The notes under the pieces are model-generated. The model saw nothing but the letters and a program-made list of their open reading frames with translations. It ran no database searches and had not been told where the DNA came from. Shown one piece after another: positions 5,511 through 42,828 of a stretch of DNA of 43,829 nt. Numbering within the stretch: position 1 is the stretch's first letter; the number at the start of each line of letters is the position of its first letter. Made by a program: the position numbers and the translations under genes. The stretch is from Eubacterium sp. (GTDB taxonomy: Bacteria; Bacillota; Clostridia; Lachnospirales; Lachnospiraceae): NCBI GenBank assembly GCA_017420535.1, contig JAFOIV010000005.1, positions 1-43,829 on the forward strand, given 5' to 3'.

Positions 5511-5567
5511 GGTTGACATAAAAGTGGACCACAGTCCCGGGGGCAGTGGTCCATTTTTATGTCAACC
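5511..5567. repeat. Palindromic intergenic element, full copy, overlapping a stop codon
   Basis: A 57-bp near-perfect palindrome with GGTTGACATAAAA arms (GTTGAC in place of GTTAAC), inner arms GTGGACCAC/GTGGTCCAT and core CCCGGG. The A and T tracts on both sides allow it to act as a terminator in either direction. The TGA stop of the upstream membrane-protein gene (5562-5564) is part of the right arm. Both outer arms have changed together, GTTAAC to GTTGAC and GTTAAC to GTCAAC, which keeps the pairing. Confidence 0.8.
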
Positions 5568-7652: not shown

Positions 7653-7705
7653 CTAGTATTTTTTTTCGACACATCACCCATTTGTATGATTTTCCCGCTA
7701 TCCTA

Positions 7706-7760
7706 GTTAACATAAAAGTGGACCACAGTCCCGGGGGCAGTGGTCCACTTTTATGTTAAC
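7706..7760. repeat. Palindromic intergenic element, full copy, after rtcB
   Basis: A 55-bp palindrome: GTTAACATAAAAGTGGACCA arm, core CCCGGG, and the matching right arm. The TAG stop of rtcB (7760-7762) shares its last base with the final GTTAAC. Probable bidirectional terminator between rtcB and the DUF4428 gene. Confidence 0.85.
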
Positions 7761-11438: not shown

Positions 11439-11457
11439 ATCCTTCTCCCCGCCTCCA

Positions 11458-11512
11458 GTTAACATAAAAGTGGACCTAGGTCCCGGAGGCTATGGTCCAT
11501 TTTTATGTTAAC
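11458..11512. repeat. Palindromic intergenic element, full copy, after the GH31 gene
   Basis: A 55-bp palindrome with GTTAACATAAAA arms and a variant core (GGACCTAGGTCCCGGAGGC). It starts immediately after the TAA stop of the alpha-glucosidase gene (11513-11515). The inner arm ATGTTAAC creates a spurious upstream ATG for the WYL gene. Confidence 0.82.
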
Positions 11513-13534
11513 TTAAATTCGACTTATGCCATCATCAGTATAGAGTCTATAATCCTCAGCAGCTGCTTCATAACAAATATATTTTAAATCCGTAACACTT
11601 ACGTCTCCTGAACGAAGTCCAGAATATGCCGCAGATACATTTGAATTATTATTAGCATTTCTGCTTCTTTCAATATCTGCCAGCAAAAGTACCTTGCCCT
11701 TTCTTATAAATACCAGTACTTCATCTAAACCCGCCTTAACATAATGGTCACCCTGAGTAAGAACTTCCTCATCATAATCATTCCATGCCCTGAAACGTAC
11801 CATTTTCATGTCCTCCGGCAGGTAAACCATTCTACCTGAAGCATTCTGCTTATAAACTGGCGCCAGCATAAGGCTGTCCCCAAGTAATAACTGGTCTTCC
11901 ACCTCAGCACTTCTCTCATCTAAGTACTCAAAACCAAGTGGCTTAAAAAGCATTTTCTCCTCGAGAACCGCCTTCATAAATTCAGAATAAAGATATGGGA
12001 TCAAAGCATAGCGAAGTTCCACTAGATTCTTGAAAATGTCACAGCTAGGGAACTGATACATTTCCTGCTCTCTGGTTCCTAACGCCGAATGATTACGGAA
12101 AAGTGGCGTAAATATACCAAACGCCGTCCATCTAAGCAAGAGGTCTTCTGTGGTGTCTGCTCCAAATCCTCCAATATCCGCGCCGGAATAAAGGAATCCA
12201 CACATAGATAAAGCCGGCATCTGCTGAATATTCAACAATAAATGTGACCACCAGGACTGATTATCTCCACACCAAACTCCACCATATCTATGCATTCCAA
12301 TGTAACTTGAGCGTGAAAACATAAGTATTCTCTTATTTGGGCAAAGTCTTTCAAATGCCTCTCCCGCAGCCTTTGTCATATTATAACCATAAAGATTATG
12401 AACTTTATCGTGACGTATTTTCTGACCCTTATATTCATGATAGAATCTGCGATAATCCTCAGCATTATTAGCAATCGACCCTACCAGATCTTTGAATTTA
12501 AAGAACGACCAGATATCCAGATTTTTCCCTTTATAGTCATCCAGCTTCTCAAAAACTTCCGCAAGATGATCCTCTGTATAAAATATCGCCGGCTCATTCA
12601 TATCATTCCAGAAGCCGTCAATTCCCTGATCCATCAGCACTTTGTACTTATTTCCGAACCATTCTCTGGCGCTATCTTTAAGGAAATCTGGAAAATGTAC
12701 CTGCCCCGGCCAAACAGCCGCCACCAGGTTTTCTCCATTTTCTTTTTTACAGAAATAGTCTCCTTTTACGCCTTCTTCATATACATCATAGCCTTCTTCG
12801 ATCTTAACTCCCGCGTCGATAATAGGAATCAAATGAATGCCATTTTCCCTCATCTCATTTACAAAAGCTGGAAAATCCGGAAATGCCTCTTCGTCCACCG
12901 TAAAATCCTTGAAACGCTCCATATAATCAATATCCATATAAATCATATCAATCGGGATGCCAGCCTTAGCATACTCATCAGCTACGCGACGGATGTCAGA
13001 TTCATTTTTGTATCCCCATCTGCTCTGGCCGAAACCGAAGGCCCACCTAGGCGGAATGTAACTTCTTCCGATCATATGACGGAAGGCACTTACTGTTTCC
13101 AGCGGACTTTTGCCCTCGATAAAATATAGATCTGCGTCAAGATCTTCAAATGAGATCTTAAGTTCATCAAGTTTCGTGTAACCAATGTCAAATGTCACCT
13201 TCCCTGGGGTATCAACGTAAATTCCAAGAGAACATGAGCTGTCAACGGATGTGATCAGTATAAAATTCTGTGATGCGTACAAAGAACGCTTGTCCTCTGT
13301 GTGCACTGGGTCGTCGGAATTATTACTGGTGTATGTCCAGCCACGCTTATTCATACCTCTTACTGTTTCACCCAGACCATAAACTCTGTCAGTTTTCTCC
13401 AACTTCATGGATAGAGTCTTTTCAGTTTCATTTATAGTTAAAAATGGGATTTTTCCTGTCATTATTTCCATATCCACTACAACTGAATCTGTAGGAATAG
13501 GATTTCCAATTCTATATTTTTTAATATCTACCAT
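11513..13534 (-). CDS. Glycoside hydrolase family 31 alpha-glucosidase
   Basis: This 673-residue protein is a retaining GH31 enzyme, probably an alpha-glucosidase acting on oligosaccharides in the cytoplasm, since no signal peptide is present. The catalytic nucleophile is D311 in WNDMNEP (309-315) and the acid/base D424 is in WCGDNQSWW. Other family blocks are GFGQSRWGY (167-175), IDMIYMDIDYM (195-205), GADIGGFG and LFRNHSALGTREQEMYQF. A beta domain precedes and follows the barrel. The ribosome site AGGAGG is 5-6 bases before the ATG. The C-terminal 60 residues carry a low-complexity stretch (ERSRNANNNSNVSAAYSG) unlike the family core. It stands alone between palindromic elements, with no transporter beside it. 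Confidence 0.93.
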   Translation of the reverse strand: MVDIKKYRIGNPIPTDSVVVDMEIMTGKIPFLTINETEKTLSMKLEKTDRVYGLGETVRGMNKRGWTYTSNNSDDPVHTEDKRSLYASQNFILITSVDSSCSLGIYVDTPGKVTFDIGYTKLDELKISFEDLDADLYFIEGKSPLETVSAFRHMIGRSYIPPRWAFGFGQSRWGYKNESDIRRVADEYAKAGIPIDMIYMDIDYMERFKDFTVDEEAFPDFPAFVNEMRENGIHLIPIIDAGVKIEEGYDVYEEGVKGDYFCKKENGENLVAAVWPGQVHFPDFLKDSAREWFGNKYKVLMDQGIDGFWNDMNEPAIFYTEDHLAEVFEKLDDYKGKNLDIWSFFKFKDLVGSIANNAEDYRRFYHEYKGQKIRHDKVHNLYGYNMTKAAGEAFERLCPNKRILMFSRSSYIGMHRYGGVWCGDNQSWWSHLLLNIQQMPALSMCGFLYSGADIGGFGADTTEDLLLRWTAFGIFTPLFRNHSALGTREQEMYQFPSCDIFKNLVELRYALIPYLYSEFMKAVLEEKMLFKPLGFEYLDERSAEVEDQLLLGDSLMLAPVYKQNASGRMVYLPEDMKMVRFRAWNDYDEEVLTQGDHYVKAGLDEVLVFIRKGKVLLLADIERSRNANNNSNVSAAYSGLRSGDVSVTDLKYICYEAAAEDYRLYTDDGISRI

Positions 13535-17497: not shown

Positions 17498-18751
17498 CTA
17501 AATAGTAGATAAAGGGTCAAGGCCATAGTCAAACAACACAATATCGATTTTTAAAACATTGTAATCCTCATGCTCGATGAAATATCCCACCACCGCATCC
17601 GTTTGCGATATTGGTGACAGAGCATAGCCTGCAATCCTAAGAAAATCCACAGTTTCATCCATGTTTAAATGAAGCCCCACAGCTAAAGCAAGCATTTTTC
17701 CCTTTGATGGCTTAACCTGACCTTTAAGCAACTTTGAAAAATATTGCTTTGAAATGTTTGCTGCAGCGTAAACCTCAGAATTCTTAAGCCCTTTTTTATT
17801 TATCAGCATCTGCAAATGTTTCTCAAATGACTCTTTATATATCCCTTTCAAAACATCTTCCAGTGAATTATTTGCGACTGCTCTGTCCTCTATCCTGGCA
17901 GTCGCCGCTGCTCCAAGCATGGCACAGCTTTCAGTATCTGTCTTGGACAGATTGCCTGCTTCTTCGTCCTGAATATTTTTAGGCGCCACACTGTCACTTG
18001 CATCCCATGTGTTTTCTGCGCATCTGTCTCTCGCAGCTTTCTTTCCAGCAATTCTACTAAAAAGCATCCTGACCGGAGAACTTTTCTCCTTATTATCCTG
18101 AGGTGCTTTCTCTTTATTATCCTGAGGTGCTTTCTCCTCGTCCGGTGTGCTATCCCTGCGTTGTCCGAACTCTTGCATACTTTCCCTCGTAGGAAGTATT
18201 TTCTCCTCAGCAAGAGCCATTTTCACATAGCTGTCATCTATATAGCTTGATACTTCATCAACAATCTCGCCTGATATCTTAACTGACTCATCACCAAAAA
18301 CAACAAGAGTTATGTCAATTTCATGTTCTTCTAAGAAAAATGTAAACGCATCTACTGCAATCTGAATACCTGTTTTCTGCGGGAAGCCATAAGTTCCTGT
18401 AGAAATCACCGGAAATGCGATAGACTCACATCCATTTTCAAAAGCAAGATTTAAAGCTTTGTCGTAACATTTTCTAAGGATTGCTTCCTCGCCCTTGCTG
18501 GCATTTTCCCATCGAGGACCACTCACGTGTATAATGAACTTTGCCTCTAGATTAAAAGCCTTTGTGATTCCAACCTCTCCGGGCGACAGGTAACCGATCT
18601 TTTCACGTTCAGCCAGGAGATTTTCCATCCCCGCTGCTTTATAAATTGCGTAGTCTACGCCACTTCCCACTGCAACCTCAGGATTTGCCGTATTTACTAT
18701 AGCATCCGCCTTAACTTTTGTAATATCATTACGAATTATATGAAATGGCAT
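17498..18751 (-). CDS. Macro-domain protein fused to a C-terminal helix-turn-helix
   Basis: Residues about 1-175 (417-residue protein) are a macro domain: DAIVNTANPEVAVGSGVDYAI near 17-37, GEVGITKAFNLEAKFIIHVSGP and the phosphate-loop block PVISTGTYGFP. Macro domains bind or hydrolyse ADP-ribose derivatives. A polar linker contains two copies of KAPQDNKE encoded by 24-bp tandem repeats (18090-18136). The C-terminal 115 residues hold an XRE-like helix-turn-helix (GLKNSEVYAAANISKQYFSK). The start at 18751 follows GGGAGG; an ATG four codons upstream has no ribosome site. A DNA-binding protein sensing ADP-ribose or NAD-derived ligands is a plausible role. A terminator follows. Confidence 0.85.
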   Translation of the reverse strand: MPFHIIRNDITKVKADAIVNTANPEVAVGSGVDYAIYKAAGMENLLAEREKIGYLSPGEVGITKAFNLEAKFIIHVSGPRWENASKGEEAILRKCYDKALNLAFENGCESIAFPVISTGTYGFPQKTGIQIAVDAFTFFLEEHEIDITLVVFGDESVKISGEIVDEVSSYIDDSYVKMALAEEKILPTRESMQEFGQRRDSTPDEEKAPQDNKEKAPQDNKEKSSPVRMLFSRIAGKKAARDRCAENTWDASDSVAPKNIQDEEAGNLSKTDTESCAMLGAAATARIEDRAVANNSLEDVLKGIYKESFEKHLQMLINKKGLKNSEVYAAANISKQYFSKLLKGQVKPSKGKMLALAVGLHLNMDETVDFLRIAGYALSPISQTDAVVGYFIEHEDYNVLKIDIVLFDYGLDPLSTI

Positions 18752-18784
18752 ATTCCCTCCCAATCATTCACTGACATCAAGTCG

Positions 18785-18839
18785 GTTAACATAAAAATGA
18801 GCCACTGCCCCCGGGACCATGGTCCATTTTTATGTTAAC
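18785..18839. repeat. Palindromic intergenic element, full copy, after the YjbR/MGMT gene
   Basis: A 55-bp palindrome with perfect outer arms GTTAACATAAAAATG; the inner arms are mixed (GAGCCAC on one side, TGGTCC on the other), leaving one A-C mismatch and one G-U pair. It starts directly after the TAA stop (18840-18842). Confidence 0.82.
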
Positions 18840-19472
18840 TTAGATCCACTGATATTTTTTTAAATCAACTTTTCCATTAATAACTTCTACTCCCTCGGCC
18901 GAAAGAAGCTCCGCCTGTCTGTTTGCCCCACCAAAAGCAAATGCCCCTGACAGTTCCCCTTTAGAATTAACGACTCTAAAACAAGGAATATTTTCCGGAT
19001 CAGGATTTTTATGTAAAATGTTCCCTACCGCCCTTGCCATTTTTTTATCTCCAGCAAGCTCAGCAATCTGACCGTAAGTAGCAACGTTTCCGTAAGGTAT
19101 CATTTTAACTGCATCATATATTTTTCGGGCAGGCGAATAACTGATCAGGTCATAACTCTCGGCTATCATCGCTCTAATATCTTCCTCAGGAACACTTCCA
19201 TCCAAAATCACCGTATTCCAATGCAATTTATTCTGATGGTATCCGGGAACCACAGACTTATATAACTTTCTCCAGAAAAATGCTTTATCCGGGTCAACCT
19301 TCAGGTTCAGGTTCATAAAACCGTCCTTTTCATAAGTCCAAAGAAATGCCTTATTATTTCCCTTATATCTGACCAGCTGCCAATTATCATCATGAAATGG
19401 AGCGTCCTGAAATGTATCAGGGAAACTCAGACCATATGCTAAAATCTCTTGTCTCTTCTTTTCTAATGACAT
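18840..19472 (-). CDS. MmcQ/YjbR-like domain fused to an MGMT-type DNA-binding domain
   Basis: Residues 1-110 form a MmcQ/YjbR-like domain (WQLVRYKGNNKAFLWTYEK, then HWNTVIL). Residues about 113-210 form an O6-alkylguanine-DNA methyltransferase domain: IPYGNVATYGQIAELAG with the DNA-binding helix, ARAVGNILHKNP and IPCFRVV at 162-168. The acceptor cysteine C164 is present, but the family's following histidine (PCHR) is phenylalanine, so the usual Cys-His activation may be altered. The protein could be an alkyltransferase with modified chemistry or an alkyltransferase-like binder. GGAGAAGG precedes the ATG. It starts 24 bp after the HEAT-like gene and ends at a palindromic element. Confidence 0.85.
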   Translation of the reverse strand: MSLEKKRQEILAYGLSFPDTFQDAPFHDDNWQLVRYKGNNKAFLWTYEKDGFMNLNLKVDPDKAFFWRKLYKSVVPGYHQNKLHWNTVILDGSVPEEDIRAMIAESYDLISYSPARKIYDAVKMIPYGNVATYGQIAELAGDKKMARAVGNILHKNPDPENIPCFRVVNSKGELSGAFAFGGANRQAELLSAEGVEVINGKVDLKKYQWI

Positions 19473-24041: not shown

Positions 24042-24070
24042 ATTATAGTATTATAATCTCAATTAGTTAA
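24042..24070 (-). promoter_or_regulatory. Candidate promoter partly formed by a palindromic element
   Basis: On the minus strand TTAACT (24065-24070, the end of the element's GTTAAC plus one base) is 17 bases before TATAAT (24042-24047), which is about 16 bases before the start codon of the 112-aa gene. TTAACT matches four of six positions of TTGACA. Confidence 0.4.
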
Positions 24071-24120
24071 CATAAAAATGAGCCATAGTCCCGGAGGCTA
24101 TGGTCCATTTTTATGTTAAC
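24066..24120. repeat. Palindromic intergenic element, full copy not at a gene end
   Basis: A 55-bp palindrome with perfect GTTAACATAAAAATG arms and core TCCCGGAGG. Unlike most copies it is not adjacent to a stop codon: another terminator (24173-24222) serves the gene upstream. A further short fragment (ACGAGCCATAGTC) lies at 24125-24137. Confidence 0.82.
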
Positions 24121-24172
24121 TCCAAACGAGCCATAGTCAACTTGACGATTGGCTAAAAAAATATCAATTAAG

Positions 24173-25774: not shown

Positions 25775-25889
25775 ATATCTGGCCTCATTTGTACTAAGTT
25801 ATTTTCCTTTTGAACATCCATTATTGTTAAACCCCTTTTACATAATTTATCAGCATGTTCTGCATAATTTCTCATCGTTTAATGTAAAT

Positions 25890-26930
25890 TCACCTTGCAG
25901 CTTCCTCAAATAAAGCCAGATATTCCTTTATCTGTTTTTTCATGGAATTTGATACTTCATCTAATGAAACATATAATGGGGCCTTTAGTGCTAAATATTC
26001 TCCATCTACCAGCTCACTTGGTACCACCGATATTGCTTTTTTACAATCTTCATCAAAAATCCATTTATTGTTTATTAATTTACAAAATCTGATCCAATAT
26101 GGAGTAATACAGGAATTAAGATTCTTCCAATTTCTAGTATTCATAGATAATGAAATACAAAAGTCATTCATTTTAAAATATCTTGTATAACCAGTTTTTT
26201 GAGGTGTCGCCTTTAACCCGGTTGTATCTATCGATATATCATTGTCAGCCCTTAATGAATCCAATATATAATCCATCAAAACCGCATGTCTCTCGTATTT
26301 TATTGCATTATCTATCCCAAAGTCCCCGTCAATAAATGGTTCAAACGCTTCACTTTCAATCTGTTCACAAAAACCTTTAAGCTGCCCTACATCCATCAGG
26401 TTTAAATTGTTTTTATGTGCTGCTTCCTCTAATTTTATTATTATATCTGTCCAGGATGTTATACCAACTCTGACTCCATCAATATCTATGCATGACTCTG
26501 AAATTTCAGTAAAAGTAAAATTACCTTTTATCCTCTCATTTACTTCATTCCATAAACTGATTTTACGATTAATTGGACATATAAAGATGAGTCCTATTCC
26601 TTTATTTTTTATTAGTCTTTTTATATATGTGTTAGGTTGATTTTTAGTAAGTGTAGCAAAAAACTTAGATTCACAAAGTATTTTCTCATCACCATGCGAA
26701 TCAAATCCAGACATATCTGGTCTTTCCTTTTCTTCGCCCTTTCCCGTAACCTGACACTCAAACTTAAATGTTTTTTCAATCGGAACACACCAAACCTCTG
26801 ATAAATGCTTTACAAAGGCACTACTGAATGTATCATTGCTTGAAATAATGAATTGAAGCGATGTTGTAGCAACATCCTCCTGTGAACCTTTGAAATATGG
26901 ATATAATTGCGCTAGTAAAGATATTCCCAT
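25890..26930 (-). CDS. PD-(D/E)XK nuclease-like protein, last gene of the nuclease cassette
   Basis: The 346-residue protein carries a PD-(D/E)XK-like site: RPDMSGFD with D72, then ILCESKF with E87/K89, and a glutamine-bearing helix (KNQPNTYIKRL). This pattern is that of Mrr/restriction-type or defence nucleases. The rest is alpha/beta with no named domain. The ATG at 26930 follows GGAGGAG; a TTG four codons upstream overlaps that site. It lies 178 bp after the HNH gene and is AT-rich like the rest of the cassette. No methylase is seen, so it may act on modified DNA, RNA, or phage DNA sensed by other parts. Confidence 0.7.
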   Translation of the reverse strand: MGISLLAQLYPYFKGSQEDVATTSLQFIISSNDTFSSAFVKHLSEVWCVPIEKTFKFECQVTGKGEEKERPDMSGFDSHGDEKILCESKFFATLTKNQPNTYIKRLIKNKGIGLIFICPINRKISLWNEVNERIKGNFTFTEISESCIDIDGVRVGITSWTDIIIKLEEAAHKNNLNLMDVGQLKGFCEQIESEAFEPFIDGDFGIDNAIKYERHAVLMDYILDSLRADNDISIDTTGLKATPQKTGYTRYFKMNDFCISLSMNTRNWKNLNSCITPYWIRFCKLINNKWIFDEDCKKAISVVPSELVDGEYLALKAPLYVSLDEVSNSMKKQIKEYLALFEEAAR

Positions 26931-27108
26931 ATACTCCTCCAATCATAGCGTTTCATATTCAAAAACGAAATAATATTTCTTTTTATTTCAAAATATACTC
27001 TCGATGATATTTCATATATTTTCGTTTTTTCTCACTTAAATATAGCTTAGGAATGTCAAACAATTTCCCACAAGCTCTTATAAAAATGATTATAATCAGC
27101 TATATGTG

Positions 27109-28569
27109 TCATAAATCTCCCTTTACTAGGGTTTCCAGCTTCTCTACGTCCTCCTGCTTATCTAATACGTGCATTCTTGCATGACAATTAGGACAAAGAG
27201 ATACAGTATTATTAGTACTGTCTTCTCCTCCACGAGATAACCATATTACATGATGTACTTCGAGATACGGATTGCCATTTTTATCATTAAATGGAGCTGG
27301 TAACTTACATAATTGACATATTCCATTAGCGCGATTCCTGGTTTCTCTAACCACCTCTGCACTTCTTTTAAATGCATCTACTAATATCTTTTTTCGTCCA
27401 CCTGTACCAGATACATCTTTCTGTAAATATTCTTCAATGCTTTGCTCAATCTGAACACTTTGCTCACGATCTGGTTTCCAGTTAATAAACCGGTCTTGCT
27501 GAATAATCCAAACAAAAGAATGGGCATCAATTAATCTTAGGATTCCTTTTATATTTAGTGTCTCCTCTATTAATTCACGAATATCATTTATTATATTTAT
27601 AAATCCTTTATAGTTATCCCAACTGCATTTACGTGACGTAGAAAAATCAATCCCTAATAATTCAAATCCCTTATCAAAATGACCAGTACTAATTGGAAGA
27701 AAACAAGTATCATTTTTTATAAAGAATAAAAATGCGATGGTATCATATTTAGCACCAAAAATATCCACTGCTTTATTAAATGCATCCTCTTCACTACATA
27801 ATGGGTTGCAATAAATATCAAATAATACTCTCTCTGCATTTTCTTGATAATTCTTATGATCCCTATTAAGCCTGTTATTAAAATCAATTTGCTGATTTAC
27901 ATTTACTAAATTATCAGCCTTACTCATAGCCCTTTTAGCACATTCAGCTATCTTCCCTGTTCCAATCCAAGTCTCATTCCATTTTTGAAAATCAAGCAGA
28001 TTTCTAGCCTCTTCTGCAACCCTTGTTTTATAACCTTCTTCCCTTCCAAGAAATCCAGAACTATCTCGAAAGCTGATACATTCCGATTGCCCATCAATAT
28101 ACTGCACATATGAAGAAAAACGACACAGCTGACTAATCAGTTTTTCTCTATTTATTATATTGTATGATTTATCTATGATGATATTATCGTTTTCTGTTTT
28201 TATATATAATCCATATTGAGTGTCTATTCCTTCAGCCCTAAACAATTTTTTCAATACTTCAATAATGTTTTTTTCTTTAATAAAAAAAGCAAATTTATTC
28301 TTTTTTGCTCTAGGATTAGCCTTATTTTTTTGATATACTAACTGGTCATTTAATAATTCTTCATATAGTTGATATCCCTTGGATTCTTCATAAATATAAA
28401 CTCTTACTTCTGCTTCTTCTCTATAATAGATTTCTATACTTCTTTCCAACTTTACGAAAGTATACTGTAACTGTTTATTTTTCTTATAATGATCACTATG
28501 CGGTACTGATAGAGAATCTAATAATTCTATCACTATGTTATGAATTCTTTTTACTACATCATTATCCAT
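27109..28569 (-). CDS. HNH endonuclease with a large unknown N-terminal region
   Basis: The C-terminal 75 residues of this 486-residue protein are an HNH module: C418 and C421 (ICQLCK), H439/H440 (LEVHHVIWLSRGG), N454 and CPNCHARMH (C459, C462). The two cysteine pairs hold a structural zinc. Residues 1-400 match no family I know and probably sense or select the target. Layout (specificity region plus C-terminal HNH) resembles modification-dependent McrA-type enzymes, which is a guess. It is 41 bp after the 549-aa gene, and very AT-rich. Confidence 0.8.
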   Translation of the reverse strand: MDNDVVKRIHNIVIELLDSLSVPHSDHYKKNKQLQYTFVKLERSIEIYYREEAEVRVYIYEESKGYQLYEELLNDQLVYQKNKANPRAKKNKFAFFIKEKNIIEVLKKLFRAEGIDTQYGLYIKTENDNIIIDKSYNIINREKLISQLCRFSSYVQYIDGQSECISFRDSSGFLGREEGYKTRVAEEARNLLDFQKWNETWIGTGKIAECAKRAMSKADNLVNVNQQIDFNNRLNRDHKNYQENAERVLFDIYCNPLCSEEDAFNKAVDIFGAKYDTIAFLFFIKNDTCFLPISTGHFDKGFELLGIDFSTSRKCSWDNYKGFINIINDIRELIEETLNIKGILRLIDAHSFVWIIQQDRFINWKPDREQSVQIEQSIEEYLQKDVSGTGGRKKILVDAFKRSAEVVRETRNRANGICQLCKLPAPFNDKNGNPYLEVHHVIWLSRGGEDSTNNTVSLCPNCHARMHVLDKQEDVEKLETLVKGDL

Positions 28570-28609
28570 ATACTTTTTTCCCTTCTTTTATCAATGCATT
28601 TTAATTAAT

Positions 28610-30259
28610 CTAAATACCGCAATTTCTACAATAAGCTCTTTTAATTAAATGATCTGGTATTGTTTCCCATTCAAATCCACAGCTTTTACACTTTACTCTT
28701 GCTTTTTCTTTAGCAAGACGATATGAAATATATTGTAAGTTATTGTTAGATTTTTCATCTAATTTTTGTTGTGCCTTATAAAATCTCTTCATAATCTTAT
28801 CAACTTGATTATTCTTATTCTGAAATCCATCTCTTATTCCACACACTGGACAAATAACGTGTCTCATCACTGTACTGTAACTTGTACTCCATTCATTTTC
28901 ACATCTTTTACACTTTAATCGAACAGGTTTTTTTGCCCCATCATATTTTATTAGTTTAATTGTGTCCGTATCAATTTTTTCTTTGGCTTTCTCAAAAAGC
29001 ATCTTCTTAGCATCAACATATTCTACCTTTTTAAAAGACACTTCATATATGGTATAGTTAATTCTATTTTGTGACACCTCTGCTTTCTTCATAAGTACAA
29101 AGCACCTTCTACCATTTGCTTCATAATATAATTGCTGTGAATGATAATCTATAGATTCATATGATGCGCTTTTTATTTCTAAAATTGCTTCATCCGTTGA
29201 TAAATCACATAAAGCTAAAATTTTTTTGTCCGGATAACTAACCATCTCTTGAGATTTAATCTGTTTTTCCTTAAATATATCCGCCTTAATAAAACTAATT
29301 AATGGTTGAAACTGTTTTTGCATTTCATGAATACTATTATTAATTCTTTGTACGTATTTTTCATCTTCTTTTTTTGTTTCTGTTACCGATCCATCTGCAT
29401 TAAATAATAATGGCATTACCGGCCTAATTTTAGGTAACTCACCTATATAATTTAGCTTACTTTTATTTCTAATAAGAATTTCTCTAGAATCAATCTTTTG
29501 AACCTTTAACTCAGAATTAATCAAATGCTCCAAAATTAATCCATCACCGTTATTTCCTAACTTAAAAATATTATCTCCAGATATTTCTATTGAAAAAACT
29601 TCTTTTTTATCACAAATAAATTTCAATAATTCTTTTTGATAATATTTCATATTATTATAATTTAAAAAGCTTGCTGGAACAAAATACTCATCATTAAATT
29701 CAAAAACTTTATTACCAGTAATAATTAAATGGTGACCATTTAATGCTTCGTATAATTTCCATTCAATTATACAATCATTGATTCCAGAATGAACTTTAGT
29801 AATATTTTCAATTCCATATAAAGTTGCTAAATAATCCTTTGTTATATTACCCTCTGCAAAACGAGATGATATTATTTCATGTTTAAAATTGTAAAAAGAA
29901 AAAAAATCTATTCCAACTAAATTATGTCTCTTAAAGTATTTATTGATAAATCTTTCATCCAAACTACCATAAGTCAAAATAATTCTGGTTTTAAGTTCAA
30001 ATTTCTCAATAATAGTATTAACTTCTTCTTGTGTTAGCGGCCTCAATCCGTCAAGGTCCTCAGTTTTTATTCCATTAATACTAGTTGTTTTTACTTCATC
30101 ATTTAATTCTAAAGGCATCAATCTATCATAGATTTCTTCTGTATCCGGTTTATATATAGATATAGACAGTAGATCATCTCTAATAGCTGATAAGCCATTC
30201 GTTTCAACATCAAGAACAACATATTTAGTCGCATCTACATTACCATTATTTTTCATCAT
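28610..30259 (-). CDS. Multidomain nuclease: DEDDh exonuclease, PD-(D/E)XK-like domain, two zinc ribbons
   Basis: This 549-residue protein has three readable parts. Residues about 11-175 are a DEDDh exonuclease (D17, E19, D101, H157, D162). Residues about 345-395 fit a PD-(D/E)XK site: CDLSTDEAILEIKSA with D352 and E361/K363, then QQLYYEANGRRCFVLM. Two C-terminal zinc ribbons follow: CKRC (450-453) with CPVCG (470-473), and CKSC (524-527) with CRNCG (544-547), both with a W between (NEW, FEW). The middle 180-340 is unassigned. It starts 53 bp after a small ORF and 41 bp before the HNH gene, so an operon is likely. Probable defence nuclease; unnamed. Confidence 0.72.
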   Translation of the reverse strand: MMKNNGNVDATKYVVLDVETNGLSAIRDDLLSISIYKPDTEEIYDRLMPLELNDEVKTTSINGIKTEDLDGLRPLTQEEVNTIIEKFELKTRIILTYGSLDERFINKYFKRHNLVGIDFFSFYNFKHEIISSRFAEGNITKDYLATLYGIENITKVHSGINDCIIEWKLYEALNGHHLIITGNKVFEFNDEYFVPASFLNYNNMKYYQKELLKFICDKKEVFSIEISGDNIFKLGNNGDGLILEHLINSELKVQKIDSREILIRNKSKLNYIGELPKIRPVMPLLFNADGSVTETKKEDEKYVQRINNSIHEMQKQFQPLISFIKADIFKEKQIKSQEMVSYPDKKILALCDLSTDEAILEIKSASYESIDYHSQQLYYEANGRRCFVLMKKAEVSQNRINYTIYEVSFKKVEYVDAKKMLFEKAKEKIDTDTIKLIKYDGAKKPVRLKCKRCENEWSTSYSTVMRHVICPVCGIRDGFQNKNNQVDKIMKRFYKAQQKLDEKSNNNLQYISYRLAKEKARVKCKSCGFEWETIPDHLIKRAYCRNCGI

Positions 30260-30312
30260 TTCTTACTCTTATTTTCAAATCTTTCATTCTTTTAATCTTT
30301 ATCCAGTTAGTA

Positions 30313-30513
30313 TTAATCGATCATTAATTCATAATAATCATCACCTTTAAGTAACAGCAATTGTAACTTGCCATAGATTTCCCAATTTGCTTCCCCGTGT
30401 TCTTTTATATACTGTAGTATATAATCGATATCAGCTTGAGATATTTCTTTATCAATTAAACCAGATACATTAGAAATCATATTATTACACTGTTCTAAAG
30501 TTGCATTGTCCAT
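30313..30513 (-). CDS. Small protein at the head of the nuclease cassette
   Basis: A 66-residue acidic product, MDNATLEQCNNMISNVSGLI at the start, helical, no recognised family. The ATG at 30513 with AGG six bases upstream is preferred over a GTG six codons earlier. A TATTATAAT -10-like box lies upstream. Small leader proteins of defence operons can be regulators, antitoxins or trigger sensors; nothing decides between these. It is 53 bp upstream of the 549-aa gene and AT-rich like it. Confidence 0.55.
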   Translation of the reverse strand: MDNATLEQCNNMISNVSGLIDKEISQADIDYILQYIKEHGEANWEIYGKLQLLLLKGDDYYELMID

Positions 30514-30674
30514 ATATAACCTAGAAACCACTTCCGAATCTTTCTTTATGATTATAATATCTACTTTAGCACCACCATAAGAATCCTAACCCCATAGATA
30601 TTCTTCATGCTTACAACAGAAAACTGTATTGGGGTGATTTCGAAGTAGTTGATAACAATTTTTTACCATATATC

Positions 30675-30710
30675 AAAAGTCTCTCTGTAATAATCAGCAG
30701 AGAGACTTTT
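30675..30710. terminator. Intrinsic terminator between the Wadjet operon and the nuclease cassette
   Basis: AAAAGTCTCTCTG pairs perfectly with CAGAGAGACTTTT (13-bp stem, 10-base loop), with T/A tracts on both sides. It lies just downstream of jetD and marks the end of the Wadjet operon. Confidence 0.85.
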
Positions 30711-30794
30711 ATTGTTATTATAGAAATCTTATTTTTTCTTATCCCACTTAATCTCTTCCGCTACCATCATGAGTCCCATATCACTGATTTTGCA

Positions 30795-32021
30795 CTATTC
30801 CATTGTTATAATTTCCTGCTCTATTTTTATATTTTCTTTTATCATATAATTCAGGATATCTACAAAACAACCTCTTTCTATCAGGTTTTCAGCCAGGCTT
30901 TTGTCTCTTTCAGTAAGTGTTTTTTTATAAGTTCTATACTTGATCATAGTTTTTATATCCATATATAATGAATTTATACTAATCCCAGTTGAATCAATTA
31001 GGTTTTGTAATATACAAAAACCATCTGGATCCAAATCACCAAAGTGATAAAACTGCAGATTGAGATTTTCTGAATTGATGTTTTTAAGAATATCCCTCAC
31101 ACCTCTACCAGAGTATCCCCCAGTATAAATAAAAACTGTATTCTCTCTTTCTATCCTATGAAATGTAGTCAGATTCTCCACCGTAATTATGTTTTTGGCA
31201 TTAACAGATATTTTCTTTACCTCTTTTATCAAACTCATTGAAAGTGCTATAGGAAAACCTGACTTTGCTTCTATTACTTTATCATCAGAATATTTGATAG
31301 AAAAATCTCCATTAATATATACATATGCTGGGTTCTGGTATATTCCATATCTTTCAAGAAGCAAATGCTCTTTTTCTGTATCTGAATGAATACCATTATC
31401 AAAATCATCAACCTTATCAGCAACTTTCAGGTACTCATATAATAACCTACATACCTTGCTTCTATATTTGTTTTCAAATGTTTTACTATTTTTAAACAGT
31501 AATATAGATAATTCTCTTTCAAGTAATTCATCTTTGTTATTCATTATTTTATCCACAATATCAAAGATTATTTTTGTTTCCTCAAGAGAATATCTGCTCT
31601 TTTTCCCACCTCTCAACTTTTCTATTTCTTGTTTACTATACCACTCAGAGAAATCCTTCTGTCCCAAGTGCCTTTTAAAGAAACTAATTTCTTCAGATTG
31701 TATTTCTTTTTTTTCTTTTACTCCAATCATTTTTCTTATAAGATCAACTTTACTAATATTCAAATAGATCTTATCAATCACATCAGAGTTTTTTTTCAGT
31801 TTAATGTCAACCACATTTTCAGTCTGAAGTTCTTTTAATTCATTCTCAAAATCACCAACTTCGTCTACATCTGCAAAATCACTATAATAATTCTTAAAAA
31901 ACTCTGATGGTTTTACATAAAAGTTTTGACTTACCCTATTTAATTCTGCATAGGTTTTACTTCCCTCATACTTTTGTATAAGTTTTTCTAATATTTTCTT
32001 CTGATTAGAACTCAACTTCAT
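30795..32021 (-). CDS. jetD: Wadjet protein JetD, TOPRIM nuclease
   Basis: The 408-residue protein has the JetD C-terminal TOPRIM domain (DUF2220-like): acidic E282 in IITVENLTTFHRI and the DLDPDG motif with D329, D331 and D333, followed by a helical end. The N-terminal half is the DUF3322-like or equivalent DNA-binding part. In Wadjet systems JetD cleaves plasmid DNA captured by the JetABC SMC complex. It is the last gene of the operon, 8 bp after jetC, with a strong terminator downstream. Confidence 0.9.
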   Translation of the reverse strand: MKLSSNQKKILEKLIQKYEGSKTYAELNRVSQNFYVKPSEFFKNYYSDFADVDEVGDFENELKELQTENVVDIKLKKNSDVIDKIYLNISKVDLIRKMIGVKEKKEIQSEEISFFKRHLGQKDFSEWYSKQEIEKLRGGKKSRYSLEETKIIFDIVDKIMNNKDELLERELSILLFKNSKTFENKYRSKVCRLLYEYLKVADKVDDFDNGIHSDTEKEHLLLERYGIYQNPAYVYINGDFSIKYSDDKVIEAKSGFPIALSMSLIKEVKKISVNAKNIITVENLTTFHRIERENTVFIYTGGYSGRGVRDILKNINSENLNLQFYHFGDLDPDGFCILQNLIDSTGISINSLYMDIKTMIKYRTYKKTLTERDKSLAENLIERGCFVDILNYMIKENIKIEQEIITME

Positions 32022-32029
32022 TCTTAATT

Positions 32030-35000
32030 TTATCCTTCATTACTTTTAAAAATGACACTTCCATCAACTACTTTTGTATACCTACCGGAGTTAATTAAAC
32101 TAACTGTTGAAGTGATATGCTCACCAATACTTCCTATTTTTTCAGGTGGAGCAGCATATATTACCTGAAAATGATTATCCTCTAGATACTTAACCATCTG
32201 CTCTATTCTTTCCCTGGAAAGTGCAGAGAACGCCTCATCTATAAATGCAAGCCTTTCACAACATTTTTCATGATAAAATTGCATAAGGCTAGCAGCTAGT
32301 ATAATAAAATATGGAGTCTGTTTTTCTCCGTTGCTCGCCGAGCCTTGTTTCTTGGATAAATTGGCTTCAATTGTATTATCTCCCTGTTTACTGGTTATTA
32401 TCATATCATAAGTAAAATACTTTCTATAATCAGTATACTCTTCTTCATCTTCCTCCATGAGAATAATATCCATATACTCTTTTATATATTGCTCCATTTC
32501 TTCGTCATCACGATTAGAGTTCATATAATTTTCAGGGTTATCAAAATAATCCTTCAGTTTTCTCTTTATCTTAAAGAAAACTACTCTGTCACTTTTTTCT
32601 GTTTTAATAAATTTGTAAGTATCGTTGCCAAATGGAAGCTTCTTCAACTCTGCATTTATTATATTCATCTCCTCTTCTGCTTTTTGAATATTCTCATTGA
32701 TTTCTCCAACAAAGTCTATCATAAATGCACTTTCCAATTCCTTCGCCTTCTTATCAAGCTGTGTCTTTGCTTCCTCTATTTTAACATTTGCCGTATTCTT
32801 ATATTCACTTCTGTAGAATGGAATAAACGACGGCCCTCTTTTGGAAACATCCAGTCCAACAATATGGCAATATTCTATCTGAACATTTTCCATATTTTCA
32901 CATGCCCGTCTCATATCATTTTCAACCGAATTAAGATTCTTATATGATACAGCTTCCCCATCTTCTTTACGAAGCTTTTTATACTCCTGTTCAACACGAG
33001 TTCTGAGTTCCGTCTTGTCCCTTATCGACTCCTCAAAATCAGAAATATAATTCTTAAGACTGAATTCATGATTTTTTAATTCATCTTTACATTTCTTAAT
33101 TTCATTTTCTGAGGAACCTACTCTAGAACTATTATTATTTATTTTCTTATTTATTTCATCTAATTCCCTCTGAGCAGCCTGTTGTTCCTTAAGAGCCGCT
33201 TCAAAAGAAGGATCATTCTTTATGCTATTAATTTTATCAACAAGAGCATTCTTTCTTTCATATAGCTCCTCTTGTCTTGCAGGAGCTGTCATATCATATT
33301 CCTGACCTATAATAAGTAATATCTTCTTAATTCTATCTCTTTTTGTTTCGGCAACTTCATTTTCGCTATTATTTTTCTTTATTCTTTCTTCTATTGTATT
33401 AAGCTTCTTCTCATTTACCTTCAACTGATCAGTTATAGCAGTTTTTCCCATATATGGAACAGTATTTCTCATATCCATCAGCCTTACAGCATAGCTTTTT
33501 GCCAGCATACCATCACGGGTCATACCACCTTTAGGATAGTTATTTAATTCTTCAAGACTTTCACATAAATGTATACCATTTAAAAGATAGTTTATATACT
33601 TTCTTGCATCTAAATTTGGAACTACAAGTAATGAAGCTGCTGAGCCTGGAGTCACATCTGAATCCGGCAGTTTATTTGTCATAGCTACGGTCGCATTATA
33701 GATTTTTTTATTTCTTAATATCTTCATTGCCTCGTAGGCATATTTAGAATCCACGATAATGAAAAATCTCTTATTACCCAAAAATGTTTCAACTGCCTTT
33801 TGCCACCTGAGATCCTTAACTTCCGAAACCAGTTCAGCAAGAAACCTTACTTCTACGTCCCTGCCAACTTGAATTCCATTCTTCTTAAATTCTTCTATAA
33901 GTATTTCCTTTGCCTTAACAGCATCTATAGGATACGTAATTATCTCATTCTTTAATTCACGTATTATTTGTGAAACTTCTGACTTCTCCTCATCTAATTT
34001 CTTTGCTTCATCCTCTAAATGAACACAATCTTTATTCAATTCGTTATCACATTTATCTACAGCTTTGCGAAGGTTATTTAATGCATTTATTGCCTTTTCT
34101 GTATCAGTCTTTGCAACATCTATTTGCATTAACGCATCCTCTTCTGAAGTATCTAAAGAGATTATATTTTTTATTCTACTAAAGCTATCTTTTAATTGCT
34201 TTAGCTTTACTATCTCATCTTCAACCTTAGCTATCTCATTCTTATATTCCTGAATCTGTTTTTCGTATACTTCGAGTAATTTTTTCATATCGGTATATAT
34301 ACTGTTATTAACTGATGCCGAATACCTTTCAATAGCCAGCCTTTGTTCTTTTTCCAATTGCTTTTTTTCTATATTCAACTCTTTTATTTTAAGTGATTGA
34401 TATTCAATCTTCTTATTACACTTATCTATACTCTCCTCAGTTACAGGTATGTGCTGATAAGAATATACCAACTTCCTTATTTCACAAATATCTCGTTTCT
34501 TTTCATAGACAGAAGTTTTTTCTTCCAACTCTTCAAGTTTTTTCTTACCCTCTTCAAGCTCATTATAAATTCTTCTTATTTCCTCAAACTGTGTCTTCTG
34601 CTCCTTTATCTCTGAAAGCGATGTTATCTTCCCAGGATCAAGAACTGCTTCTCTAATAAATTTATCTATATCTCTTTCAGGCTTGAATGCCATCATTTTT
34701 ACAAGCTTTGATCTATATTTTGCAACATTACATCTGAGTCCCAGGGAACGAAGTAACTGCTCTGTTCCTTTTTCTTCACCTTTAAAATCCTTACCCTTAA
34801 TTCTTCTTCCTTTATAAAGAAGATTACTCTTACTATGGGTATAATATTTTCCTTCCTTAACATAGCTGAATTCAAAATCTTCCAATCGCGAATCCTTCAT
34901 TATGAACCAGGCTCCAGTCTTCACATCTTGTTCGTTCATAGATTCAATACATACCCCACCTGTTATATATGTTTTCTCAATTGGTGACCAGAATTCCATT

Positions 35001-35308
35001 ACTATATATGACGTTACCGCCCCTGTTCTAAGATATCTGTATTCTCCCTCACTCTTAGTATCACCTCTCACATATGACTTTACAGTCCTGTCCTTATCTC
35101 CAGCTGCAATATTAAATCTATTATTTCCGGTAAGAAGATAAGTCATAGCATCAAGAATCGTACTTTTTCCTGTTCCATTAACTCCTGTTATTAAGGTTGA
35201 ACCTCCCAAATGAAATGTTACATCCTGAAATTTCGACCAATTTATCAATCTGATTCTTGTAGCAGTCTTTCTATCAAGAACATTTGTATGATCATTCATA
35301 TGTGTCAT
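32030..35308 (-). CDS. jetC: Wadjet protein JetC, SMC-like ATPase
   Basis: A 1092-residue MukB/SMC-like ATPase: Walker A GVNGTGKST close to the N-terminus (about residues 42-50 here), long coiled coils, a hinge-like globular part in the middle, then the C-terminal head with the Walker B FIDEAFSALS about 70 residues from the end. JetC forms the DNA-entrapping and loop-extruding motor of Wadjet. The ATG at 35308 has GGAG 9 bases upstream; an ATG at 35299 overlaps the jetB stop in an ATGA arrangement and is the alternative. A longer frame reaching 35329 overlaps the jetB end further. Confidence 0.92.
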   Translation of the reverse strand: MTHMNDHTNVLDRKTATRIRLINWSKFQDVTFHLGGSTLITGVNGTGKSTILDAMTYLLTGNNRFNIAAGDKDRTVKSYVRGDTKSEGEYRYLRTGAVTSYIVMEFWSPIEKTYITGGVCIESMNEQDVKTGAWFIMKDSRLEDFEFSYVKEGKYYTHSKSNLLYKGRRIKGKDFKGEEKGTEQLLRSLGLRCNVAKYRSKLVKMMAFKPERDIDKFIREAVLDPGKITSLSEIKEQKTQFEEIRRIYNELEEGKKKLEELEEKTSVYEKKRDICEIRKLVYSYQHIPVTEESIDKCNKKIEYQSLKIKELNIEKKQLEKEQRLAIERYSASVNNSIYTDMKKLLEVYEKQIQEYKNEIAKVEDEIVKLKQLKDSFSRIKNIISLDTSEEDALMQIDVAKTDTEKAINALNNLRKAVDKCDNELNKDCVHLEDEAKKLDEEKSEVSQIIRELKNEIITYPIDAVKAKEILIEEFKKNGIQVGRDVEVRFLAELVSEVKDLRWQKAVETFLGNKRFFIIVDSKYAYEAMKILRNKKIYNATVAMTNKLPDSDVTPGSAASLLVVPNLDARKYINYLLNGIHLCESLEELNNYPKGGMTRDGMLAKSYAVRLMDMRNTVPYMGKTAITDQLKVNEKKLNTIEERIKKNNSENEVAETKRDRIKKILLIIGQEYDMTAPARQEELYERKNALVDKINSIKNDPSFEAALKEQQAAQRELDEINKKINNNSSRVGSSENEIKKCKDELKNHEFSLKNYISDFEESIRDKTELRTRVEQEYKKLRKEDGEAVSYKNLNSVENDMRRACENMENVQIEYCHIVGLDVSKRGPSFIPFYRSEYKNTANVKIEEAKTQLDKKAKELESAFMIDFVGEINENIQKAEEEMNIINAELKKLPFGNDTYKFIKTEKSDRVVFFKIKRKLKDYFDNPENYMNSNRDDEEMEQYIKEYMDIILMEEDEEEYTDYRKYFTYDMIITSKQGDNTIEANLSKKQGSASNGEKQTPYFIILAASLMQFYHEKCCERLAFIDEAFSALSRERIEQMVKYLEDNHFQVIYAAPPEKIGSIGEHITSTVSLINSGRYTKVVDGSVIFKSNEG

Positions 35309-35978
35309 CAAAATCTTCTCCATCCTCATTTTCTAAATCTATATCTTTTTTCTGTAAATCCTTAGTAAACATCCTTTCCTCAGCCTGTTTGGCAAACCGA
35401 TGAAACTCTTCTGTTTTCAGAGCAAATTGAATCGAAGGGAATATTTTAATTTTTGCATCTGCATCACCCAATTTTCCATTCATTTCTATAATGCTATATC
35501 TTTCAAGTTTTTTTATTGATTCCGATAGATCACCCTTTTTATCAAACCTATCCTGAACCTTATATTTTTCAAACTGAAACCTTAAATCTGTAATTGATAT
35601 TATTATAGATTCTGCCAGACTTCCACGTCTGACCCTGTCAGAGTATATTGTAAATAGAATACATAACACTATGCTATCAGCAAGAGACAGATTACACCTA
35701 TTAATCTGCATCTTTGATGATTCTCCTGCGCTTACAGTATTCTGCAGCATAATAACCTTATTATCCCTATCAACAAGAACGTCATATCCTATTGGGCTTA
35801 AATATCTGCTAAAAACATCAGAATGTTTAGAAACAAAAAAGTATTCTTTTTTTTCTTCCTCATTCTTTTCATATACGATAAATGTCTTCTTAAGCAAAAC
35901 TCGGATACACTTTTGAAACATCATTTTCTCACCAGATGTAAGTAAATCCCATTCACTTTCAAAACCTGCTATATCCAT
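35292..35978 (-). CDS. jetB: Wadjet protein JetB, MukE-like subunit
   Basis: The 228-residue acidic protein has the size, position and winged-helix-like composition of JetB, the MukE-like accessory of the Jet SMC complex. The sequence resembles the DUF6063-type JetB rather than the DUF4194-type, suggesting a Wadjet variant outside the classic type I; this is from memory. It is 3 bp downstream of jetA and overlaps the start of jetC by a few bases, so translation is coupled. Basic residues in GKLGDADAKIKIF may contact partners. Confidence 0.8.
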   Translation of the reverse strand: MDIAGFESEWDLLTSGEKMMFQKCIRVLLKKTFIVYEKNEEEKKEYFFVSKHSDVFSRYLSPIGYDVLVDRDNKVIMLQNTVSAGESSKMQINRCNLSLADSIVLCILFTIYSDRVRRGSLAESIIISITDLRFQFEKYKVQDRFDKKGDLSESIKKLERYSIIEMNGKLGDADAKIKIFPSIQFALKTEEFHRFAKQAEERMFTKDLQKKDIDLENEDGEDFDDTYE

Positions 35979-35981
35979 TTT

Positions 35982-37406
35982 CTACTTCCTTTTCAAATTA
36001 AACTTTCTTATGAGCATTTGCTCTGTTTCTATATACCCCTCTTCAGGCTCCACCACATATCCATTTTCCTGAGCATATACTATGGATGAAAGCATTTTTA
36101 ATAGCTGTATTTTATCTTCTATAGGAAAATCATCAGCATTTATTTTAAGTCTCTCTCCCATTAACCTGCTTACATATTCTGACATCTTATCCTTTGCATA
36201 AATATCTTCCAATTCTTTTTCAAATGCATCCTTAGTTCTTTTGATATCCGCCTCAGAAAGTTCCACCAACTCCTGCGCGCCGTTCTCTCTTATAGTCTGA
36301 CTCCTTCTCGGGTAAGATATTGAGGATAGATCAATGAACTGATTCTCATCCAATGCAAAAAGTGTTTGTATATTATCAGATACATTTTCATTTATATCCA
36401 AATAATCTATTTCTTCACCAAGAAGCATTAAGGTTCTCTCTATATCACCTCTGATATTTTTTTCCTTGTTTCTTATAAATCTAGCTCGTCCGACTGCAAC
36501 CTGAAGATAAACATTTATTTTATGTTTTATATCTGACATTATCCTATCATAGTCTCCATCTAGAAATCTAATAGCATTGTCAATCATATCCTCAATATAT
36601 TCTTCAGCCTTATCTTCCGGAATCTTTTCTTCTTTTCTACAACACAAAATCAGTTTTTCTCTTATTTCCTCTGTTTTAAGAGAATTAAGTCTCTGTAAAA
36701 TCACCCTTCTGAATGTCCTGATATTCTGCCTTTTTGTGAGACGTGCATATTCCTTAATAAAATCTCCATTAAAATAATCCAAGAGGTTTTCAGTAAGACT
36801 TTCAAATGTTTCTTCATGAATCATTCGCTCTATTATCTTTTTAATAAATGTTGCCAAAGTCTTCAAATCCTTTGACAACCCCTTGGCATTTTTGTATACA
36901 TTTTTAAGAACATCAACATATATATCTTCATATTGATCAGTATTGACCAAAGTATTATATATATTGTAAATGTAACTCGAAAATTCAACCGTTTCCGGTT
37001 TTTCCAGTTTTTCTAATAATTCTGCCAGCGTTATTCCCTGCTCAGTCATTATTATATTTCTTCCATATGTTGCATCATCTATTTCTTCATCAAGCCACCC
37101 CACCTCACTTGACGACAACTTACGTATTATTTGGGAGGCGAGTTCTAAGTAAGACGATTGCAGAGTTTTCTCAGCATAGCCATCCTGTTTTAGAGACTGC
37201 TCATCTATTTCTTCTATCGTCTCTATATGATTATCCATAAGATAGCCTGCAATGGCATCACGAATTCTTTCCCTTTCCATTTTAAATGTAATTTCTCTAT
37301 CATATTCTGCGTAAATAACCTGAAGGCAGTCTGCATATACCCTGTTATTACTTCCACTTGATAGAGGGTTAAAAAAACCTATTGGAATGATGTTAAAAAT
37401 GTTCAT
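35982..37406 (-). CDS. jetA: Wadjet protein JetA, MukF-like kleisin subunit
   Basis: This 474-residue helical protein begins MNIFNIIPIGFFNPLSSGSN, and its pattern fits the JetA family formerly called DUF5716, the kleisin-like subunit that bridges the SMC heads. It is the first gene of the Wadjet operon, directly downstream of a palindromic terminator, with an AGGGG ribosome site 9 bases before the ATG. Four gene order jetA-jetB-jetC-jetD with overlaps shows a complete Wadjet module for protection against plasmids and circular DNA. Confidence 0.85.
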   Translation of the reverse strand: MNIFNIIPIGFFNPLSSGSNNRVYADCLQVIYAEYDREITFKMERERIRDAIAGYLMDNHIETIEEIDEQSLKQDGYAEKTLQSSYLELASQIIRKLSSSEVGWLDEEIDDATYGRNIIMTEQGITLAELLEKLEKPETVEFSSYIYNIYNTLVNTDQYEDIYVDVLKNVYKNAKGLSKDLKTLATFIKKIIERMIHEETFESLTENLLDYFNGDFIKEYARLTKRQNIRTFRRVILQRLNSLKTEEIREKLILCCRKEEKIPEDKAEEYIEDMIDNAIRFLDGDYDRIMSDIKHKINVYLQVAVGRARFIRNKEKNIRGDIERTLMLLGEEIDYLDINENVSDNIQTLFALDENQFIDLSSISYPRRSQTIRENGAQELVELSEADIKRTKDAFEKELEDIYAKDKMSEYVSRLMGERLKINADDFPIEDKIQLLKMLSSIVYAQENGYVVEPEEGYIETEQMLIRKFNLKRK

Positions 37407-37426
37407 ATCATTAATCCCCTATGGCT

Positions 37427-37472
37427 AAATGGACCTTGGGGACAGTCCCCCCAGGTCCATTTTTATGTTAAC
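37427..37472. repeat. Palindromic intergenic element, variant, after the GNAT gene
   Basis: AAATGGACCTTGGGGAC pairs with GTCCCCCCAGGTCCATTT; the core has changed to GGGGACAGTCCCC on both sides and the left outer arm is missing. It begins directly after the TAA stop of the GNAT gene (37473-37475). Confidence 0.78.
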
Positions 37473-37898
37473 TTATTGAATTTTCTTAATAAACCTCAAC
37501 TGCTCTTTCTCGCTCCCGTATCCATTGTTCCTGTAAAACAAATGGGCCTCTTTTCTAGTAATTCCTGAATTAAGTCTCATCATGGAGATGCCACCTGCCA
37601 TAGCCCATTTTTCAGCTTCATGAAGGAGTTTTTTTCCAACGCCTTTTCTTCGATATTCCTTAGCTACAGCAAGTCCAAGCACATTACACATGCTTTCCGC
37701 ATAAAGAACCTCATACCGCTCAACATGAATAAATCCAACCACCTTGCCATCAATTACCCCCACAAGAACGCACTCCCTTGCAGGATCTAATTCTTCTAAC
37801 CTTTTCTTTAAAAGGTCCTTATCGCAAATGTAACCTAGATCAATTTCACATATTTTATGAATTTCTTCAAAATCATCAACAACCGCTTCACGTATCAT
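37473..37898 (-). CDS. GNAT-family N-acetyltransferase
   Basis: The 141-residue protein is a GNAT acetyltransferase: motif A VLGLAVAKEYRRKGVGKKLL with the acetyl-CoA-binding R/Q-x-x-G-x-G/A turn at RRKGVGKK, and the C-terminal FYRNNGYGSEKEQLRF block. The acceptor is unknown. Its leader (GGGGGATGAGAAATGATA) is very like the leader of the methyltransferase gene at 42737, and its 3' end has a decayed copy at 41803-41860. It stands between the DUF4143 gene and the Wadjet operon. Confidence 0.9.
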   Translation of the reverse strand: MIREAVVDDFEEIHKICEIDLGYICDKDLLKKRLEELDPARECVLVGVIDGKVVGFIHVERYEVLYAESMCNVLGLAVAKEYRRKGVGKKLLHEAEKWAMAGGISMMRLNSGITRKEAHLFYRNNGYGSEKEQLRFIKKIQ

Positions 37899-42781: not shown

Positions 42782-42828
42782 AAAAATGGACCATAGTCCC
42801 GGGGGCAGTGGTCCATTTTTATGTTAAC
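42782..42828. repeat. Palindromic intergenic element containing a stop codon
   Basis: AAAAATGGACCATAGTCCC core with a full right arm ATTTTTATGTTAAC; the left outer arm is replaced by an iteron-like ACTTTCACAAACAAAAATGG. The TAA stop of the membrane-protein gene (42824-42826) is inside the GTTAAC. Confidence 0.82.

Follow-up and report, generated by a model that had tools for sequence, protein, structure and literature searches.

A variable island of Eubacterium sp. that joins a Wadjet operon to three separately distributed nuclease genes, one of them a candidate type IV-like HNH enzyme with an exchanged N-terminal domain

The 43,829-nt stretch of Eubacterium sp. DNA analysed here (GCA_017420535.1, contig JAFOIV010000005.1, positions 1-43,829; hereafter the window) carries a complete type I Wadjet operon and, beside it, minus-strand genes for three nucleases: a 549-amino-acid (aa) protein with a DEDDh exonuclease domain, a 486-aa HNH protein and a 346-aa PD-(D/E)XK-like protein (Table 1). 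The evidence favours, on balance, the gathering at one island site of a Wadjet operon with three nucleases, each an independent single-gene unit; of these, the HNH protein would be a type IV-like restriction enzyme composed of a sensing front, a coupling core and an HNH blade. The first-pass annotation had proposed a single cassette of these nucleases and a small open reading frame (ORF); the co-occurrence test came out against it, with no two members found together outside the window in the genomes and loci examined. The argument for the HNH protein draws on domain boundaries, the exchange of ends around a conserved middle, neighbouring defence genes and conserved catalytic motifs, all read at the level of sequence.

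The HNH gene is divided by a sharp joint. Its DNA is 97.8% identical to the counterpart in the sister genome G540 over 1066 bp (27092-28157; blastn), and this homology stops inside the gene. The protein body from residue 139 on is ~95% identical in G540 and 65% identical in G507, of the same genus, whereas the fronts of the window and G540 proteins are unrelated (a local alignment score of 30, where shuffled sequences average 34 and 374 of 500 do as well). The G+C content of the front is 0.25, as compared with 0.34 for the rest of the gene. For the G507 protein the alignment begins at the same residue 139 joint and there is no N-terminal domain; here, a gene for UzuA (PADLOC E 4e-77) lies 15 bp upstream of the front-less core-HNH gene (L093, 2322-4328), and the two may form a two-gene pair. 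The likeness to Uzume, a single-gene system, lies in this adjacency, whereas no UzuA match was obtained among the window proteins scanned with PADLOC. A regular partnership of UzuA with the core was considered and rejected, the adjacency having been seen once, in G507. UzuA matches occur in 28 plasmid records; of the three inspected, the two that are annotated have no core beside UzuA and the third bears no annotation.

The C-terminal part of the HNH protein matches Pfam HNH (E 9e-10), PADLOC mREase_IV (E 1e-19, residues 391-471 only) and, in the PDB, EcoKMcrA (6ghc, E 3e-18 on residues 374-473), followed by TagI (6ghs) and ScoMcrA-like chains; it is homologous to the C-terminal HNH domains of EcoKMcrA and TagI and retains the HNH motif as CxxC (418), HH (439), NN (453) and CxxCH (459). 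With the whole protein as query, 50 of 299 phylum genomes match, and, its own genome aside, all matches listed fall within residues 315-483, a span that takes in the HNH part and reaches no further than the final portion of the core. (The genus, family and phylum samples used throughout overlap, and counts from them are not independent.) The protein shares with the type IV SRA-HNH and EVE-HNH enzymes a separate N-terminal domain and the absence of a visible methylase, but differs from them in an extra middle domain of ~235 aa that has no significant Pfam, PHROG or PDB match. Its separate, exchangeable N-terminal domain matches no known sensor and is unrelated to any that was found. The earlier suggestion that recognition might proceed through unknown domains survives in part, as a likely role for the exchangeable N-terminus of the HNH protein.

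In the mechanism that we propose, the front would detect a feature borne by incoming DNA, probably a base modification, the conserved core would couple this sensing to the nuclease while restraining it, by analogy with VcaM4I, and the HNH domain would cut the DNA. Self DNA would be spared because it lacks the sensed feature, and no methylase would be needed. Modification as the signal, DNA as the target and coupling as the task of the core are what we infer for the HNH protein. The closest nuclease relatives of its HNH part, EcoKMcrA and the type IV enzymes, are modification-dependent. Fusions of a PUA-superfamily sensor to HNH are established modification-dependent enzymes with, in VcaM4I, an autoinhibitory linker: its HNH blade is blocked by the sensor domain and a linker helix, and becomes a toxic nuclease once both are removed (PMC7897488). 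The comparison with VcaM4I follows this description and not a sequence match. If the proposal holds, the window and G540 proteins would constitute a matched natural pair, with bodies ~95% identical and the sensor as the only large difference, from which the signal recognised by each sensor, and the way in which it activates the blade, could be learnt directly.

An alignment built from residues 138-372 places the core at seven loci, the window included. It returns the own copy only among 249 phylum genomes and is present in 3 of 61 genomes of the genus. The nuclease end changes around this core as well. In L022 (Christiangramia, a Bacteroidota genome), the core follows another front, which matches phrog_8048 at positions 3-135 (E 8e-45), and precedes a NOV_C/DUF3883 end; the same domain occurs in PD-T4-1 and the DUF3883 (NOV_C) defence proteins, whereas the window protein ends in HNH. 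A Paracoccus plasmid encodes the core with an endonuclease VII-like end within a type I restriction cluster, the IMG/VR contig L071 carries a core protein with a Paracoccus-like end (37% over 92% of the protein), and the fecal record MT836682 (L070) again has an HNH end. Five of the seven loci carry defence genes, known or candidate, no more than 3 kb away from the core gene, namely Wadjet (window), GmrSD_N (G540), UzuA (G507), PDC-S14 with an anti-phage dCTP deaminase (L022) and type I restriction-modification (Paracoccus plasmid); none was seen near the core gene in L070 and L071. The L022 deaminase scores 338 bits, below the NCBIfam cut-off of 400, and matches PADLOC dCTPase at E 7e-128. 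The row to which it belongs (L022, 5046-11179) comprises the deaminase, PDC-S14, a small zinc-finger plus PD-(D/E)XK-like gene (by eye) and the core-DUF3883 gene. A kinship of the core with the McrB N-terminal domain DUF3578, indicated by a tblastn match, was rejected, as the alignment is good only over the DUF3883 end that the two share, and gapped and weak elsewhere.

From these combinations we raise, tentatively, the possibility that the core is an undescribed DNA-restriction platform, a coupling module that takes different front sensors (in the same chain or separate, e.g. UzuA) and different rear nucleases (HNH, endonuclease VII-like, DUF3883), this locus having caught a sensor exchange between sister genomes. 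The novelty of the core, and that of the DEDDh + PD-(D/E)XK fusion described below, is unproven, because the open PubMed Central matches listed, among which no paper on either was found, cover the literature in part, with subscription papers mostly outside them.

Several observations weigh against a sensor-core-nuclease reading. Seven loci are few, and simple mosaicism would also account for a recombination point near residue 138. Neither the core, as stated above, nor the window front matches a family significantly (best for the front DUF3979, E 0.03, and no match among PDB entries, plasmids or viral contigs), so that the 'reader' role of the front is argued from exchange and not from homology. 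Furthermore, the L070 and L071 core proteins have no N-terminal domain and no reader gene was recognised beside them, and the L071 gene adjoins terminase-like genes (by eye). HNH proteins beside terminase genes often serve the phage. This neighbourhood, together with the 14 phage records that match the HNH protein (in 13 cases confined to the HNH part) and the many PHROG HNH families that match the same part, would suit an HNH endonuclease of the homing or mobile-element type, with no part in defence and with an N-terminal exchange that is neutral mosaicism. We regard such an origin as unlikely in view of the defence genes near five of the seven core genes, of top PADLOC and PDB matches that are type IV enzymes (though in the HNH part only), and of a body that is kept while the front is exchanged and the nuclease end, too, changes family. 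Doubtful, but of some weight, is the idea that the front senses something else, such as RNA, a protein of the phage, or an end or structure of DNA, which would make the protein an activated effector and not a type IV enzyme. The window N-terminus belongs to no recognised modification-binding family and three core proteins lack any front domain, in agreement with this idea; nothing specific opposes it, except that the closest nuclease relatives depend on modification.

A further alternative concerns the locus as a whole, and takes the three nucleases as one co-transcribed, multi-component system in which each chemistry processes the product of the previous one. The genes are indeed co-oriented and closely spaced, the gaps between the four successive ORFs being 53, 40 and 166 bp (178 bp for the last when measured to ATG 26930), and 281 bp with a terminator-like hairpin set them apart from jetD; for the same reason, a transcript shared with Wadjet is not indicated. 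We nevertheless consider one system quite improbable, because each nuclease has relatives unaccompanied by the other two: those of the 549-aa protein in G504, those of the 346-aa protein in G559 and G576, and the HNH body in G540 and G507 as well as four unrelated records. The whole genomes of G540 and G507 yield no 549-aa and no 346-aa match, though core and HNH are present, and that of G504 yields no core and no 346-aa match, though it has the 549-aa relative. Likewise, no second member appears in the ORF or annotation lists (by eye) of L022, L069, L070, L071, L094, L095 and L096; as L070, L071, L094, L095 and L096 are of short length or break off close to the gene, the absence there covers their visible part only. 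The homology of the HNH gene to G540 ends at 27092, 17 bp past the stop codon, and this gene is therefore shared without the other nucleases; the 346-aa gene has a strong ribosome-binding site of its own after the 178-bp gap, and the small member is a remnant. A co-occurrence test is called for before neighbouring nucleases of an island are taken as one system.

The 549-aa protein combines a DEDDh exonuclease domain (residues 14-169), a PD-(D/E)XK-like site (E338, D352, E361-x-K363) and two zinc ribbons (C450/453/470/473 and C524/527/544/547), with matches to Pfam RNase_T (E 5e-8) and DUF4379 (E 1e-6) and to PADLOC DEDDh (E 6e-13). The full DEDDh motif (D-x-E, D, H-x4-D) is present, and its residues D17, E19, D101, H157 and D162 are identical in the G504 relative, as are E338, D352, E361 and K363 in the alignment; six of the eight zinc-ribbon cysteines are also identical, the pair C470/C473 sitting in an alignment gap. 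The own genome and G504 (~41% identity) are the only matches in the genus (2/61). At family level, 22 of 200 genomes match at E <= 0.001, own included, with full length reached in the own genome only, and a two-sequence profile finds 10 of 348 genomes at 1e-8, own included, the nine others being limited to positions 5-218 of 599, in the exonuclease part. No relative was found in viral contigs, by single sequence or alignment, and no match in plasmids; 45 phage records match, and the best 20 of the 45 all lie within residues 407-548, the zinc-ribbon part. In G504 the gene is flanked by sensor kinase-like and TetR-like genes (by eye), and the gap before it holds no plus-strand ORF of >= 20 aa. 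Judged from its motifs only, the protein would cut through the PD-(D/E)XK site and resect through the DEDDh site, the zinc ribbons making the DNA contact. Its N-terminal domain resembles the DEDDh exonucleases (PolC-type, Cas2-DEDDh and CRISPR-associated DEDDh), but here precedes the PD-(D/E)XK-like site and the pair of zinc ribbons. The deoxydinucleases near phage defence in Clostridia are DEDDy enzymes according to PMC11706625, and the 549-aa protein was not placed among them because it has H-x4-D where those enzymes are DEDDy.

For the 346-aa protein, ATG 26930 is the preferred start, with GGAGGAG just upstream, whereas the listed TTG 26942 falls on that ribosome-binding site; the L094 relative aligns from the Met encoded at ATG 26930. 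The D...E-x-K...Q motif is kept, D76, E91-x-K93 and Q102 (350-aa numbering) being identical in three sequences. The window protein has no significant family match in profile searches of Pfam, PADLOC and PHROG, and Pfam PDDEXK_4 matches only the L094 relative (E 0.011); both PD-(D/E)XK sites of the locus are assigned only from motifs kept between relatives. The own copy alone was found among 299 phylum and 61 genus genomes. At family level 4 of 250 genomes match, own included; in addition to G559 these are G576, with a copy truncated by the contig end, and G092, with a piece carrying a stop only. The neighbours seen beside the relatives in G559 and G576 include neither an HNH nor a 549-aa gene, and no relative was found in viral contigs (single sequence or alignment), plasmids or phages. 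By its motifs only, the protein would act as a third, stand-alone endonuclease.

The annotation's set of three nucleases and a small gene is upheld for the nuclease genes, and fails for the 66-aa ORF as a conserved fourth member. This ORF has matches at E <= 0.1 in 8 of the 61 genus genomes, own included, which are clear in G535 (E 5e-8), borderline in G507 (0.004) and between 0.04 and 0.1 in the other five. In G535 the ORF matches the C-terminal portion of a protein of 325 aa, and a tblastn search of the window with that protein covers 30582-30319 (34% over 93 columns, E 1e-9). Because the homology extends upstream, past both the GTG and the ATG start and as far as an in-frame stop, we read the ORF as the probable tail of a decayed larger gene and not as a conserved member gene. 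A role as antitoxin or partner was rejected on this reading as a remnant.

The remaining claims about the setting are borne out. Coordinates and Jet matches agree on four co-oriented minus-strand ORFs beside a complete Wadjet operon, in which JetA, JetB, JetC and JetD (PADLOC E 1e-72, 5e-56, 2e-175 and 7e-107) follow the order of Wadjet type I. The operon is thus a full member of that type, and the three nucleases match no Wadjet profile in PADLOC. The nuclease genes are AT-rich, with a G+C content of 0.27-0.33 (0.27 for the 549-aa gene) against 0.32-0.45 in 13 sampled genes outside the island, ranges that overlap slightly. The defence context likewise stands, with Wadjet adjoining, HNH, DEDDh and PD-(D/E)XK chemistries side by side, and a Pfam scan of eight island proteins that shows no methylase. 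Terminator-like hairpins number 5 in the region against 3.4 expected, and a promoter scan was uninformative (59 sites, shuffled mean 63).

Table 1. Positions of the features described in the window.
Feature	Position	Strand	Basis or remark
Variable island	25794..37453		blastn against G540, G549 and G506, with ORFs of those loci
Type I Wadjet operon, jetA-jetB-jetC-jetD, complete	30795..37406	-	Pfam and PADLOC
14-pair hairpin, terminator-like	30675..30710		listed on + strand only; between jetD and nuclease genes
Putative remnant of 3' end of larger gene, containing 66-aa ORF	30319..30582	-	tblastn with 325-aa G535 protein
66-aa ORF	30513-30313	-	alternative GTG at 30531 gives 72 aa
549-aa nuclease gene	28610..30259	-	ORF confirmed
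486-aa HNH nuclease gene	27109..28569	-	ORF confirmed
HNH protein, exchangeable N-terminal domain (front)	28159-28569 (residues 1-137)	-	
HNH protein, middle core domain, ~235 aa	27454-28158 (residues 138-372)	-	
HNH protein, C-terminal HNH part	residues 373-486		
346-aa PD-(D/E)XK-like protein gene	25890..26930	-	listed as 350 aa from TTG 26942
Stand-alone DEDDh-type gene, 183 aa	25223-25774		at island edge; PADLOC DEDDh E 8e-11
~56-bp palindromic repeat copies	24065-24121, 5512-5566, 7705-7761, 11457-11513, 18785-18840, 42782-42828 and others		

The island is delimited by flanks that blastn finds in common with sister genomes, the GNAT gene at 37473-37898 and, on the opposite side, a block of DEDDh, ArsC and 156-aa genes from 25793 down; between them the window holds Wadjet and the three nucleases. 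With the same flanks, G540 contains instead HNH-368, HNH-509 (the protein with the exchanged front), GmrSD_N and PIN7 proteins (L063, 4669-11086). HNH-368 adjoins the DEDDh gene in G549 as well, where the GNAT side is not established because the short contig shows no GNAT gene. In G506, the 156-aa gene directly follows GNAT with nothing between; the DEDDh gene is absent and the ArsC gene lies ~11 kb further on. The ORF of the G540 and G549 copies of the 183-aa DEDDh gene is 19 codons longer at its start.

A palindromic interspersed repeat of ~56 bp, present also in G506, G540 and G549, occurs 13 times in the window, in full or in part (blastn E <= 1e-4; the count includes the query copy). No copy lies inside the island, for which the chance under uniform scatter is 0.018 with the island limits fixed beforehand by blastn, and a partial copy sits at the GNAT edge (37454-37473). 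Elsewhere in the window, a 421-aa protein (17498-18763) resembles, by eye, a macro domain with a helix-turn-helix region after it.

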